NCBI RefSeq assembly: GCF_001723175.1
Contig: NC_064657.1
Location: 1,488,001 to 1,552,000 of the forward strand
Reading direction: 5' to 3'
Source: Penicillium oxalicum
Lineage: Eukaryota > Ascomycota > Eurotiomycetes > Eurotiales > Aspergillaceae
Length of the DNA: 64,000 nt
Shown here: piece after piece, positions 16,741 to 22,641 of the stretch
Numbering within the stretch: the first letter of the stretch is position 1
Layout: each line of letters starts with the position of its first letter
Translations under genes and position numbers: made by a program
The notes under the pieces: generated by a model
The model's input: the letters and a program-made list of their open reading frames with translations, nothing else
Databases searched by the model: none
Told to the model about the DNA's origin: nothing

Positions 16741-19700
16741 CTATTCATGGTCGTCCTCATCCAGCATTCGTACACTTTCCACTTCCCACCCAGCAAAGGT
16801 GCCGATACTTCGCTTGTCACTACTACTGGGGTCCGCAAACTTCACCTCGCACCTAGCCATGTTGAAGCCGACATTCCAACCTGTGAGGGGGCTACCGTTG
16901 TTCCTTCGGCAGAGGCCATTGTAGCCGGCTGGCAACTTATATACGTCATCCTGGCCAAAATGGTTAATCGCGCAAAAGATGGCATCCATCCCTGATGGGC
17001 CACTGTGATCAGTCTTTTCCAACTTGTGACTCGTCGCTCCCCACCACGTACTACCATCGATAGTGCTCGGATCTTGACGGATGAAGGATGCTTCGAAGTC
17101 CCGTTTAAACACCCAGGATATTTTATCGTTGTTCTAATTAAAGTCAAAAATGTTTTTTACCTCCGGTCCTGAGAGCTTGAATTGGTGACACTTACTCGCG
17201 TGGTGACTCCGTCAGGCATGGGCTGCTTTTCGGGGTATTCCTTCAGTCTCTGCTCGTATTGCGAACCTTGAGATCCGTGCTGCCCAGGTGTTGTCCATGC
17301 TGCGGGGTTGGCATTAGTATCTTTTTAAAAGAAGACTGAGTGAAAGATGGAGTCATACACTTCTTTCTCCAATCCTGCCAGAAGTCGCCGCGGTCGTCTC
17401 CGTCTTCCCTCTCAGGCTCAAGCTTGGCCCAGTTTGATTGCATGTATCCTATCATCCCTATAGCAACCAATCAGCAAAGCCCTACACAGGTGACCAACAG
17501 ATCATGACGTGACTTACGAAGACATTGCCCATGCCAATTATTCTGGTAAGATGCCACGCAGGTAGCTGTGCGAGCGTCACTAGCCTGATAGTCGCCGCCT
17601 TGCTCGGAGGATTTCCAGGGGAACTCGTCGCACTGCAGTTTCAGGTTCTTATTTCCCTGGTGGTCTTGCAAGTCAGTAGTTTGCTGCGCACAGGTCTTTG
17701 GTGGACACTGTGCGTCATATCGTGCCCTCTTCCTAGCTTCGTCGTTCGAGAAGGTGAATAGTTTCTGGCGTTTGTTGTCAGGGATGTTCAGCACGGGCGT
17801 ACAGAGACCGGTAATAGCATCCATTTTGCCATTTTTGCCCTGTTCAATAAAGTCGTTGAGAAAGTCACAGTTAACTGTCCTCAGTCAGTAACGATAATCG
17901 GAAGGAATGATGGACTTTCTGTTTAGGGAGGGTTGGTTGAGGCTGGGTGGGCTTACATCGAATTTCGGGCAGCCGAACGTCTCCACTGGTGCCCGGGGGG
18001 CACTTCAGGTTCTGCGTAAACTCTGGAGCATTGGGGCCATCTGGAATTATCAGTAACTCAAAGCGCTGGGACACTTTTGGAAGCCACTTGAGAGGGCCAC
18101 TTTTCACGTACCGATATCCATTTCATCACCACGTTTGGACAAACCCGAGGCGGAATCAAGGTATGTAGAGATAGAGCTGTTGGTCAACGAACCGAGCTCG
18201 ACAAGATTCTGGCGCGAAGGGCCATCGATGGCGGCCTCGCGCTTTGATTTAGCTGATGACGACATTGGGATCGAACCCTTCTTCTCGTACAGCTTGAACG
18301 TCTTACGCGGGTCGTATGCCAGTCGAGGCGCTAGTGCCCAATCGATGGAGTTGAGAATTTGGGCCGTGGCCTTGTACCCGAGATTGTAGAAGAGGTACGC
18401 TCCGAAGCTGTAGTTGAACTCCTTACCAGTCGTGTCATAATCACTGTGAGCCTGGAAGGATAGGTCGCCCATTACGTAGCCGGTTAACTGCGCGTCCATT
18501 AGGGTAGCACCGCCGACGAGTTTCCCACCGCCGATTTTGATACCAACATGTGCCTCCGGTGTTACGATAATGTCGAGTTGCGCGTCCAGAGCCACACCTG
18601 CTTCAAAGATTGGCTCAACAGAACCAGGAGTGGGCGCCTGTACCTCACTTTGGAGCCCTAGCAGTGTCTCATACTTGTTCTTTGCATCATCGTTCTGCGG
18701 CCAGTAAACCTCCGCCTTCCCGAAGGACAGTTGTGCTCCGGCAGTCGCCTCGCCATGCAAAGTTACCTTGCCTCGGATCTGAATCAATGTCAGTTTATAT
18801 GCATATTTACCGGGGCCTTTAAAATCTCACTTCTCCATAAATGTCCAGTGTTGGTCCGACTGCCGCAATTCCCTTCACGGCCAGTCCAGGATAGGAAATG
18901 GTGTCAATTATCTTCTTGCGGTCGGTTGTTGTCTGCATCTGAGCATTTCCCTCGATGTGGAGTCCGAGATAAGCAGTTGGATTCATCCCGAAGTAAGCAA
19001 ACGTTTCGGGCTTGCCGGGGGGAATGAACGTGGCGGATAAATAGTAGGCATAAGTGGCATCATCACCAGGTCAGCTTCCAAATCCATCCGGAGGTTAGCT
19101 GAAAATGTCTGGCCGGGACATCCCCATTGCGCCCGGAACAAATTGATGGTCTTGGAAAATCCCAGTTCAATAACGCCCAAACTGGATTCGGTTACCGTAG
19201 TCTGGCATGGACGTCAGTATGTATTTGGATCAGAGTACTAAGTCACCAGGGGAATACATGCCAGTTTCTGTAGCCAGGTTTTGAACGCACCCCACCAACG
19301 TTTGTCGAGGTGGGAGCCGGAGAACTCCATTGGTGTTTTCACATGAATATTCTCACTACGCTTCTCGATATTACTGTGGTGCACAACGGCCCGTTGAACT
19401 CGGGAGCGCCACTCATCCTCGGTGAGGCCCTCTTCTCCCAGGCCACGCTTCATGCGGCCGGCTGGCGAGTTGGTCATTTCATCCCAGTATCCCATCAGAT
19501 TCGTATAGTCCACGCGAATGTTCACGGGCTCATCATCTCGCTTGAGCTTAATCAGATGGAAATTATAGTCGATCTTCACCTCATATACGGGGTTCGTGTT
19601 GCGCTCGAGCGACCGATGTTCCAAATGATGATCCGGAAGTTGATACTCCTCATGGGCTGTTTTCATGGAGACAATCCGGGCAAACGGGCCCTCGCCGACA

Positions 19701-22641
19701 TGGTCTGGAAGCCGGATGATTGTGTCCTCGGCGCCATCGATGAAGACACGCTCGCATTCGTGGGACCCCACGGGATAGTTGCAGTAAACATGGAGTGTCT
19801 CCTCGGCGTGGTCGAAGACGGTATCCATGAGAGTTTGGTTGGTTGTTAAAACGGAACGTTTTACTCTTGGGATTTCCCGGGACCGACGTACAACGGTGTG
19901 CGACGTCGCGAAGTCGTTGTCAATGGATCCACCGGGTCCGTCGAGCATCACAAATCCATAGGCGTCGCTGCCATCCTCCTTCGTAGAGGGCTCGCTATCC
20001 ATGTTGTTATTCTGGTACTCATCGCTGTATTCCCAAACGACATCCGACTTCTGAGGGTTGTTGTAGTATTTTTCCCATAGGTACTTGGGATCAACGGGCC
20101 AGTCTTTGTCGTATCGACTCGGTGGATCACAACAGAACGACCACTCAGGATCGCTGCCAGGCGGGATAGTGACTCCGTCGCAGTTAAACTCCGACTTGGA
20201 TCCGGCGCCCATCGCCGATGGCGGATCGAGCGCGCCAGCTACCTTTACCTTTCCCCGTGAGCAGGGACGCGGTTTACAGACGAGATCCGTGATATGGCTC
20301 GCCCCGTAGTCGTCTGTCATGTCAGCCTGGGTAAGAGTGTTGGTCCATGCGCAACCGCTCACGCTAAAACTGTGATCTGATGGACAGCAGAGCTCGCTTT
20401 TGAAGCGGTCGTGCAGCGCGCTACCAACAGAGCCGTCGACAGACGATACGTAAGTATCGGAGCACCACGGCTTGCCATCTGGCTTATCCCAGCGGAATGT
20501 CAGGGCATCATTGTTTGCCGGGCATTCGCCCGAGGTGTAAGGCAGAAGCGGCCCTTGGCAATCGGTCCACTTGCAATGGGAGAACATGGCTGCTGAATCG
20601 CAGCATAGGTAGCGTTCGCCAACAAAGCATTGCCCTTCACCTTTGGCGTCCAAGGCGCTGTCTCAATTCAATTTGAACTGATTGCTCCCGCATTTGCCGT
20701 CGCAGCCGAACTCGCTTCGCTCGGGCGCACCGTTCCATTCGCAGTTCTTGGGCATGGCATCCTCGGGACAGCAGATGTGCCGGTACCATCCCTCGGAGCA
20801 GTCGCCATGGAGCTCCTTATTGCCCGCCTGCAGGGGATTGTGCGCAGTGCTGACCGACATGTATCCTGATGGGCACACCTGGTCGGGTTTCTTTTCCCCA
20901 CTTGAGCCGTCAGTGCAGCGCGTTGTGACGAAGCAGTTTTGGCCAGTATAGGCGGCAAAGGCGTCGGACAAGGCGTTAGCAGCATCCCCCGATAAGCCAC
21001 CACCCTCCATCTGCATGGCTGAGAGGCCCTCGCCGATCACTCCGGCAAGCGCGTCAAAATCGCCATCATCCTGGTCGATGGCCCAGATCATCCACCCGCT
21101 CAGGCATCGGCTGGAGATGAACTTTTTCTTGTCGAAAAAGGATTGCTCATCGTCATAGGAGATCCACTGCGTCCCCTCGTAAACATTATATTTAACCGTT
21201 GTCTCCGGATCATAGAACGTATGGACATCAAGTGAGTGGTTCCTTGACGCGATTTCCGCGTATGTCAGGATGCCCGAGGTGTCAGAGCATGATCCGGGTC
21301 TTCCACCGTCCGAGAATTCGCACTTGCCATTAGGCTGATAGCAATTGGGGTCCGCCATGGTAAAGGAGCGACCATAGAATGCGAAGCCGAAGACAACCTT
21401 GGATGGGTCAATGCCGTTGCGCCAAAGAAGATCAAGACCGAGGTCGATCTCAGTGATGTTTGTGTGGCCTTGAAGGTAAGGACCAGTCCATTTGATGTCA
21501 CGGTCCCACATTCCGTGCAGGTCGTAGCTCATGAGGTTGAAGTAGTCGACATATTTAGCCATTCCGGCAGGGTCAAATCCGCGTAAGTACCAGTAGCTCG
21601 TTGGGAGTGTCGCCGAGATTTCCCAGCCAGGATTCTCGCGATGGAAGGCCTCCCGCAGCTCACCCAAAAGGGTCACAAAATTCGCCGTGTCTTGAGGCTC
21701 TCCGCCCCGATCCGAGGCGGACGGATACTCCCAGTCAATATCAATACCGTCAAGGTGGTAATCCTTCAGGTATTTGACCACTGAGTTGATGAAGGTCTGA
21801 CGATTCTCATATGAGCGTGCCACTGCGTCCAGCGTTAGTGTCCGCATGGATTTACATTGCCAATTGAGTCACTCACTCTGAGTCCAAAGGTGCTGCGTCG
21901 GAGCATCACTAAACGCCCACCCCCCAACAGCGATGTTGAGCCGCAGCCCTGGGTGGGTAAACTTCAAGAGCGACATCCGGTCCACAACGTCGCCGTACTC
22001 GTCTTCCAACTTGAAATCGTCACCAAAGTTGACAAAGGCCAGGTTGATATGAGTAAACGGCTCAATGATCAGACTCTCTGGTTCAATCACATTGCATCCT
22101 TTATGGATGTTGAACAACTCATAATATCCAATACGTCGATCAAAGGACATGGCATCAGTATTCTCGGAGCATTTTGGGCGACTAAATGGCTTTAGTACTT
22201 ATATTCCACTTGCGCGGCCGAAGCAGACATACTCTGGTTCGCCGCAACCCCCACCGTTGGAGTTTTTTTGGCAACCGTTGCCGCAGAATTCGGAAGTGAC
22301 ACCGCAGTATCCGAATGAACTGCCAACCGTTAGTCGTCAGAACGATATGCCCTCTGGGTCGGACCGCTAACTTACCTGCAACAGACATTAATAGGACAAT
22401 CAGAATTACCTGGAGCAGCGAACTCTCCGCACTCTGCTGTCGCATTGCAGTTACTCCTGCAACCAGTTCCGCAATGAGCGTCGGTAAAGCCACATGCATA
22501 GTCTTTGCTACAGCAGCCTTGGTAACATGGAATTGAATCTGTGCAAGTGCCTCCCGGCTCACCAGGTCCCTGGGCAATAGCCGAGGGAAGCTGAAGCAAT
22601 ATCAAACAGATAAACAACAATGGCCAGGTAAGAGAGTTCAT
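16741..22641 (-). pseudogene. Killer-toxin-like GH18 chitinase with C-terminal NucA/NucB nuclease domain, two lesions
   Basis: Eleven exons on the minus strand: 22641-22376, 22319-22233, 22181-21877, 21822-19247, 19201-18831, 18778-18112, 18040-17957, 17874-17518, 17457-17359, 17299-17196 and 17133-16741, about 1,770 codons. The order is: signal peptide (1-24); two Cys-rich hevein-like chitin-binding modules (about 30-110); GH18 domain from about 128 with DGIDIDWE (Glu about 251); Cys-rich linkers; a middle part with several Lys-Arg sites that a Kex2-like protease could cut (VKRS, MKRG, EKRS, DKRW); a Gly-rich alternating region (about 1205-1420); and a nuclease-like region containing CDEFPWKSSEQGG (about 1534-1546), the NucA/NucB signature. 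Known relatives are subgroup C fungal chitinases and the alpha/beta zymocin precursor. Breaks: an in-frame TGA at 20665-20663 (codon 606) and a 1-nt loss near 19070 in exon 5, whose length is one short of phase. Secretion and chitin binding are inferred. Confidence 0.85.

Follow-up and report, generated by a model that had tools for sequence, protein, structure and literature searches.

A disrupted killer-toxin-like chitinase gene of Penicillium oxalicum and its relatives as candidate one-gene nuclease toxins with conserved Lys-Arg sites

The stretch of Penicillium oxalicum DNA analysed here, 64,000 nucleotides of contig NC_064657.1 (G000:C8:1488001-1552000, hereafter the window), carries on its minus strand one gene, 22671/22641..16741, in which a signal peptide, hevein modules, a GH18 chitinase domain and a Gly-rich β region are followed by a NucA/NucB domain. 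The encoded precursor is a killer-toxin-like chitinase and, judging from its sequence, plausibly a one-gene nuclease toxin. Taking all parts of our best explanation together, we lean slightly towards the view that a family of killer-toxin-like secreted precursors, with intact copies in other species, is represented in P. oxalicum by a decayed copy, the window gene. The gene is chromosomal, lying on a 1.79-Mb contig of a 30.77-Mb assembly of 17 contigs.

The predicted structure comprises 11 exons with borders set by eye from splice sites (minus strand: 22671-22376, 22319-22233, 22181-21877, 21822-19247, 19201-18831, 18778-18112, 18040-17957, 17874-17518, 17457-17359, 17299-17196 and 17133-16741). 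There are two candidate ATGs, at 22671 and 22641; the intact Aspergillus niger relative (P0071) begins at the second, in agreement with the start given in the original prediction, which had been made from the letters of this DNA and its open reading frames (ORFs) alone. The parts of the gene are as follows.

22376-22671, minus strand: exon 1, with the signal peptide MNSLTWPLLFICLILLQLPSAIAQG (assigned by eye; 12-residue hydropathy maximum 2.67) and the first hevein-like module (Chitin_bind_1 in piece A)
20666-22319, minus strand: exons 2, 3 and the start of exon 4, introns included, with the second hevein module and GH18 with DGIDIDWE (PF00704, PF00187)
20663-20665, minus strand: in-frame TGA that interrupts exon 4 (lesion 1), at the junction of ORFs 20663..21868 and 19238..20662, which share a frame; relatives are continuous here
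19247-20662, minus strand: Cys-rich region, spacer with several Lys-Arg sites, and KRWWGAF at the start of the β region (from ORFs and comparison with P0071)
18112-19201, minus strand: Gly-rich alternating β region with a Lys-Arg linker at its end (PF23865 below its cut-off; Lys-Arg excess in relatives)
19055-19075, minus strand: frameshift region (lesion 2), approximate, near 19065; the reading frame passes from that of piece B to that of piece C, and relatives are continuous
17450-17874, minus strand: NucA/NucB nuclease domain with one internal intron (PF14040); Pfam match from about 17773, CDEFPWKSSEQGG at 17632-17594
16741-17299, minus strand: C-terminal extension with a conserved Lys-Arg close to its end, kept in 45 of 54 relatives

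Pfam was searched separately with the three unbroken pieces of the gene (A, B and C). GH18 (PF00704) scored 205.5 bits and Chitin_bind_1 (PF00187) 46.9 bits, the latter in two stretches of which residues 80-118 are the better, and the GH18 catalytic motif DxxDxDxE is present as DGIDIDWE together with these CBM18/hevein modules. DNase_NucA_NucB (PF14040) scored 39.7 bits against a cut-off of 23.8, and a profile search of the P. oxalicum genome itself recovered the domain with 41.4 bits at 17516-17773. The NucA/NucB assignment of the original prediction thus has the profile match it lacked, the CDE..EQGG signature lies at exactly the coordinates given for it, and the chitinase modules and Gly-rich region hold as described, the domains by Pfam and the signal peptide by eye. 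The middle piece, which spans the Cys-rich region and spacer, matched no Pfam family; in the β region DUF7223 (PF23865) reached 15.4 bits, under its cut-off of 27; and no LysM domain (CBM50) was found by Pfam in pieces A, B and C.

The proposal that dock, passage region and nuclease are encoded in one precursor extends well beyond this genome, GH18 and NucA/NucB being joined in single precursors across many ascomycetes, many Sordariomycetes among them. To avoid conditioning on the nuclease, relatives were surveyed with a query of residues 440-1109 from P0022, a protein judged by eye to end ahead of that domain; among at most 8000 scored candidates there were 140 matches, the best 120 of which were listed. 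All 55 full-length proteins (at least 1600 residues) come from this survey, and a hidden Markov model (HMM) of the nuclease was built from the 42 of them with a precomputed PF14040 match. With this HMM the domain is found in 54 of the 55, including 12 of the 13 that have no precomputed match (in two of the 12, the hit covers just a part of it). The CDExP..GG motif is present in 51; it is missing in four, and in three of those the domain is partly or wholly absent. Among the best 120 matches, 84 have the β region and more than 150 residues beyond it, of which 79 carry the nuclease and five have no nuclease call. Throughout the 158 precursor-family proteins, the GH18-β and β-nuclease order is constant wherever both modules are present, and ten have no nuclease call despite a β region and more than 150 residues beyond it (P0014, P0017, P0018, P0025, P0026, P0034, P0035, P0039, P0049 and P0108; five of them belong to the survey matches). 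Since module order and motif recur in about 50 full-length relatives, the architecture exceeds chance. The source names 'Killer toxin subunits alpha/beta' are attached to relatives P0031, P0081 and P0092. Two other ideas were set aside: a chance NucA/NucB motif is ruled out by a match above the Pfam cut-off and by its presence in nearly all full-length relatives, and cargo exchange in the bacterial style is not seen, the same nuclease occupying those 79 of 84 proteins.

The residues of the nuclease can be compared with those of bacterial NucB. According to the available text of PMC5758888, Bacillus subtilis NucB becomes inactive on loss of any residue that corresponds to H53, D93, E94 or N117 in the B. 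licheniformis enzyme, where His53 keeps Asp93 positioned and Asn117 binds metal. We aligned the 67 fungal domains scoring above 120 bits with our HMM to an ORF from an IMG/VR contig (L016); fungal positions correspond to the D-E pair of NucB by motif and, by inference through L016, to its His and Asn, NucB itself standing outside the alignment. The window has the D-E pair, as do all 67 rows and ten of ten chosen slices; the C-terminal region thus does have conserved acidic residues. At the position taken to be Asn117, the window and 49 of the 67 rows have Asn, and L016 has Gln. Where L016 has His, taken to be His53, most rows have Gly. The metal-binding acids are retained and the supporting His is probably lost, and nuclease activity of the C-terminal domain is plausible. 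The L016 protein (3672-4283; 203 residues) is bacterial-looking, with CDEFPFKSTEEGG, a PHI stretch that includes the His, and Gln at the Asn position; we regard it as a relative of the fungal nuclease among bacteria.

New support for the precursor proposed in the original prediction comes most strongly from the pattern of Lys-Arg, the dipeptide preferred by Kex2, along the related sequences. Basic dipeptides were counted per region in the 55 full-length proteins and compared with within-region shuffles. The ratio of observed to expected Lys-Arg is 4.33 in the spacer between the Cys-rich and β regions, 7.78 in the β-nuclease linker and 5.01 in the C-terminal tail; inside the modules it is 1.07 (GH18), 0.80 (Cys-rich), 0.61 (β core) and 1.15 (nuclease core). 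In spacer, linker and tail, Arg-Lys (1.11, 1.34 and 0.70) and Lys-Lys (1.18, 1.29 and 1.14) show no excess. Other dipeptides are enriched elsewhere: Arg-Arg in the linker (3.08), nuclease core (2.21) and tail (1.70), Arg-Lys in the β core (2.03) and Lys-Lys in GH18 (2.80). At least one Lys-Arg is found in the spacer of all 55 proteins (12 and 8 in size-matched controls), in the linker of 50 (2 and 5 in size-matched controls) and in the tail of 51, the last count having no size-matched control. The A. niger protein has nine Lys-Arg sites. For eight of them, a counterpart no more than eight residues away is present in 45, 33, 50, 40, 41, 44, 32 and 45 of 54 relatives; the ninth, inside the nuclease core, has one in five. 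Moreover, Lys-Arg followed by an aromatic residue, any residue and Gly or Ala, as in KRWWGAF, occurs in 40 of the 55. Because the excess falls between the modules and not inside them, it supports processing by a Kex2-type protease. Of the Kex2-separable precursor originally envisaged, then, the concentration of sites at module boundaries stands, and cleavage at them is what we infer.

Zymocin of Kluyveromyces lactis offers a precedent for such processing. Its α/β subunit is matured at a Lys-Arg site, and its tRNase, γ, comes as a subunit of its own from a linear-plasmid gene. Here, by contrast, the gene is chromosomal and the NucA/NucB domain lies inside the precursor, not in a separate plasmid-encoded product; a zymocin-type Lys-Arg that would separate chitinase and β parts is the predicted site in the spacer of every full-length relative. 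The likeness to zymocin and to the virus-like element toxins PaT and DrT lies in a chitinase-bearing α/β part that assists cell entry of a toxic nuclease subunit (PMC8715425, in its available text). The same text likens group C chitinases to zymocin α/β and gives, as their proposed role, the admission of antifungal molecules through the walls of rivals, with the cargo left unnamed. The present precursor resembles killer-toxin-like (subgroup C) chitinases in being a secreted GH18 protein with hevein/CBM18 modules at a locus flanked by LysM genes; it differs in that its polypeptide chain terminates in a nuclease domain and that no LysM was found in the gene, so that LysM modules, present in many subgroup C members, occur here in flanking genes only. 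LysM is not universal in the subgroup, as M. anisopliae C4 (clade C-I) is without it (PMC4169460, available text). CBM18 is described in the available portions of PMC8715425, PMC4169460 and PMC7829358, and LysM in two of the three; none contains a word beginning 'nuclease'; the same word stem was not found in PMC12785316, on P. oxalicum chitinase genes, and PMC11433127, as far as available, merely lists an annotated NucA/NucB protein.

Joining GH18 to NucA/NucB is not wholly new, being partly known already (PMC8472843, PMC3482391; both in part). Debaryomyces hansenii pDH5A ORF2 and its kin combine ChtBD1, GH18 and a NucA/NucB fragment in one secreted protein of 1226 residues; unlike the gene described here, they reside on yeast cytoplasmic virus-like elements and hold a fragment of the nuclease only, and the available text includes no processing-site analysis and no filamentous-fungal relatives (PMC8472843). 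Our search of the PMC open set returned no report of such a precursor, conserved processing sites included, in filamentous fungi, and none of the neighbour family described below; the main works on these chitinases (Tzelepis 2014; Tzelepis and Karlsson 2018/2019) enter it only as cited references and may hold earlier accounts. The Tox-ComI domain of bacterial polymorphic toxins (competence nuclease, NucA) we take to be PF14040, from a shared B. subtilis prototype. Tox-ComI toxins likewise carry a D-E dyad nuclease as C-terminal toxin and are paired with ComJ or SUKH immunity; the domain was tabulated in ascomycetes and basidiomycetes in 2012, with the suggestion that fungi may use such transferred domains in the manner of killer toxins (PMC3482391, available text). 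Whereas bacterial polymorphic toxins place varied cargo on one delivery module, the cargo here is nearly fixed.

In the mechanism that we propose, the observed hevein and GH18 domains, behind their signal peptide, would bind and cut chitin in the wall of a rival. A Kex2-type protease would cut at the conserved Lys-Arg sites in the spacer, in the β-nuclease linker and near the C-terminus; the β region, with the new N-terminus WWGAF.., may aid passage, and the NucA/NucB domain, with its acidic residues in place, would degrade the nucleic acid of the target. The producer might conceivably be shielded by the acidic product of the adjoining gene, which lies on the same strand as the precursor gene:

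16328-16462, minus strand: neighbour gene exon 1, starting 278 bp past the stop of the toxin gene
15433-16272, minus strand: neighbour gene exon 2

The neighbour gene, which the original prediction had overlooked, is intact and encodes a protein of 324 residues with a net charge of -24, in which no signal peptide and no strongly hydrophobic stretch were found. Over 92% of its length, this protein is 100% identical to POX_h09818 of P. oxalicum (P0159). Its exon-2 ORF has no Pfam match, and hence matches neither ComJ nor SUKH, and its relatives gave no match in NCBIfam (two scanned) or PADLOC (four scanned). The predicted fold is confident, with middling matches only, to anticodon-binding domains. 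That it is an immunity protein is possible, if not the likelier case; whether it is instead an unrelated housekeeping or accessory gene that adjoins the chitinase gene by chance is, in our estimate, evenly balanced. Against chance adjacency stand the shared strand in the window and the equal contig sizes of precursor and neighbour in Aspergillus undulatus (P0006 and P0195, 44,767) and A. alliaceus (P0018 and P0178, 1,200,678), taken in each case as the same contig. This gives linkage in two of the three assemblies in which both families are named, P0006 and P0018 being partial precursor models with no precomputed nuclease. Likewise, in P0021, from the lichen fungus Calogaya, a neighbour-like stretch (79 bits) is joined to β region and nuclease, the sole match among the 158 proteins and one that may be a natural fusion or a fusion of gene models. 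Furthermore, all 59 relatives of the neighbour are acidic, with a median charge of -22 (no control set was scored). A broken toxin gene beside an intact neighbour is the pattern expected were protection to outlast the weapon.

Two side observations concern the neighbour family. P. oxalicum neighbour proteins fall into two clusters, with 100% (POX_h09818) and 92% (PDE_06496) identity to the window protein, which is wide for one species. The genome also holds a second, decayed-looking neighbour-family stretch (G000:C4:2733303-2733590, L014) with 41% identity and one TGA, which adjoins neither of the two NucA/NucB places of the genome.

Several observations weigh against the toxin-immunity interpretation. 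The window copy itself is broken. In the nuclease, 59 of the 67 rows have Gly at the position of the inferred His53 and 18 have Gln at the Asn position, no solved structure matched the domain by sequence, and among five relatives scanned with PF14040 (P0071, 37.1 bits; P0073, 39.6; P0046, 39.1; P0021, 47.3; P0003, 21.5) P0003 falls under the cut-off. The limits of the Lys-Arg regions were redrawn after the peaks of a first pass, so as to part linker and tail from the cores (first-pass ratios: GH18 0.96, Cys-rich 0.82, spacer 4.57 and 3.09, β region with part of the linker 2.35, linker 4.28, nuclease and tail 2.96), and the sequences counted are related and not independent events, the contrast between regions serving as control. 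The A. mulundensis precursor and neighbour (P0123 and P0193) are on contigs of differing size, and all 36 species-named relatives among the 59 of the neighbour belong to Aspergillus, Penicillium or Talaromyces, though the precursor is known from many Sordariomycetes; with this narrower range, the neighbour family is not a universal partner of the precursor. Finally, the D. hansenii elements with GH18 and NucA/NucB fragments gave no element-dependent killing (PMC8472843, available text). Of the one-gene nuclease toxin originally proposed, the conserved D-E pair speaks for the idea, the probable replacement of the His and the disruption of the window copy against it.

Only tentatively, then, do we put forward the widest form of the interpretation: that filamentous fungi hold chromosomal one-gene nuclease toxins, with dock, Kex2-cut spacer, passage domain and NucA/NucB domain, and a previously unnamed acidic immunity family kept after toxin loss, in a bacteriocin-like ecology within the nuclear genomes of Aspergillus and Penicillium that has spread between both genera. 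Were the cargo to sit in the same precursor, the domain, the cut sites and the neighbour of an intact A. niger or A. nidulans relative would make the question directly testable, and bacteriocins would have a eukaryotic parallel if moulds did hold a toxin-immunity pair in the nucleus.

It is doubtful, in our judgement, that the precursor is a secreted chitinase and DNase that serves feeding or the clearing of extracellular DNA and of wall remains left by dead hyphae, with no entry into living cells and no immunity gene. Bacterial NucB is indeed an extracellular, biofilm-degrading DNase (PMC5758888, available text), a chitinase with a DNase suits scavenging, and the neighbour family was not found in most precursor-bearing lineages. 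However, Lys-Arg at module boundaries, one of them directly before the aromatic-x-Gly/Ala sequence in most full-length relatives, better fits a multi-part delivery protein, as does a conserved β region that belongs to no known enzyme family. Kex2 processing is common in ordinary secreted enzymes, so the Lys-Arg argument is not decisive here. Counted for a toxin precursor is a further wall hydrolase followed by NucA/NucB in the same genome: a GH71 α-1,3-glucanase ORF (441.7 bits) and then a NucA/NucB stretch (G000:C6:374589-374789; L010:3307-6946), putatively a single gene. This stretch scores 24.3 bits in the genome search, above the cut-off, and 21.2 as a single exon piece, below it; Lys-Arg lies ahead of it and, by eye, EE takes the place of the DE of the chitinase family.

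With its TGA and its frameshift, a disruption that the original prediction does not mention, the window copy as assembled is unable to yield a full-length protein. Placing the TGA within a spliced intron is disfavoured, the nearest GT..AG pair found by eye being about 21 bp (longer pairs were not enumerated) and relatives being continuous; a frameshift is preferred to an intron at the second site because a GT..AG pair across it would delete residues nearly invariant in relatives. We consider it unlikely that both lesions are assembly errors and that the gene is intact in the living strain. There are only two lesions in a gene whose pieces are otherwise 88.6, 92.3 and 89.1% identical to the full-length A. 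niger P0071 (1721 residues), and 80.8, 77.1 and 64.2% identical to A. nidulans AN0517 (P0073). Speaking weakly against assembly error, no P. oxalicum name appears among the 59 and 120 precursor rows listed, though P. oxalicum neighbour proteins are listed, the row names being those of cluster representatives only. Least probable of all is that the C-terminal domain, related to nucleases but inactive, is retained as a binding or structural module: the Gly and Gln substitutions and the spread of Pfam scores in the five scanned relatives would suit this, but no aligned row departs from the D-E pair, the bacterial-looking L016 likewise has Gln at the Asn position, and the few proteins that lack the whole motif mostly lack part or all of the domain.

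In a tree of the β-plus-nuclease region from 28 chosen rows, the window copy groups with the two A. niger rows (100/100). All five Penicillium rows are more distant from it; P. concentricum P0075, the closest of them, stands at the base of this group of eight rows. The genera are closely mixed in a further two groups, one joining A. brasiliensis and P. verhagenii, the other A. fruticulosus, P. thymicola and P. chermesinum. Three places in the tree thus show close groupings that cut across the genera, including the window copy with A. niger at 89%, which suggests transfer between Aspergillus and Penicillium or old paralogues, the comparison having no species-wide baseline behind it.

The chitinase gene and its neighbour are flanked on both sides by LysM-domain genes:

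11858-13654, plus strand: LysM-domain gene on the opposite side, extent approximate (PF01476, 23.3 bits for 12469-13362; none for 11858-12403)
23308-25250, plus strand: LysM-domain gene, approximate in extent, that runs divergently from the chitinase gene (PF01476, 30.7 and 27.2 bits)

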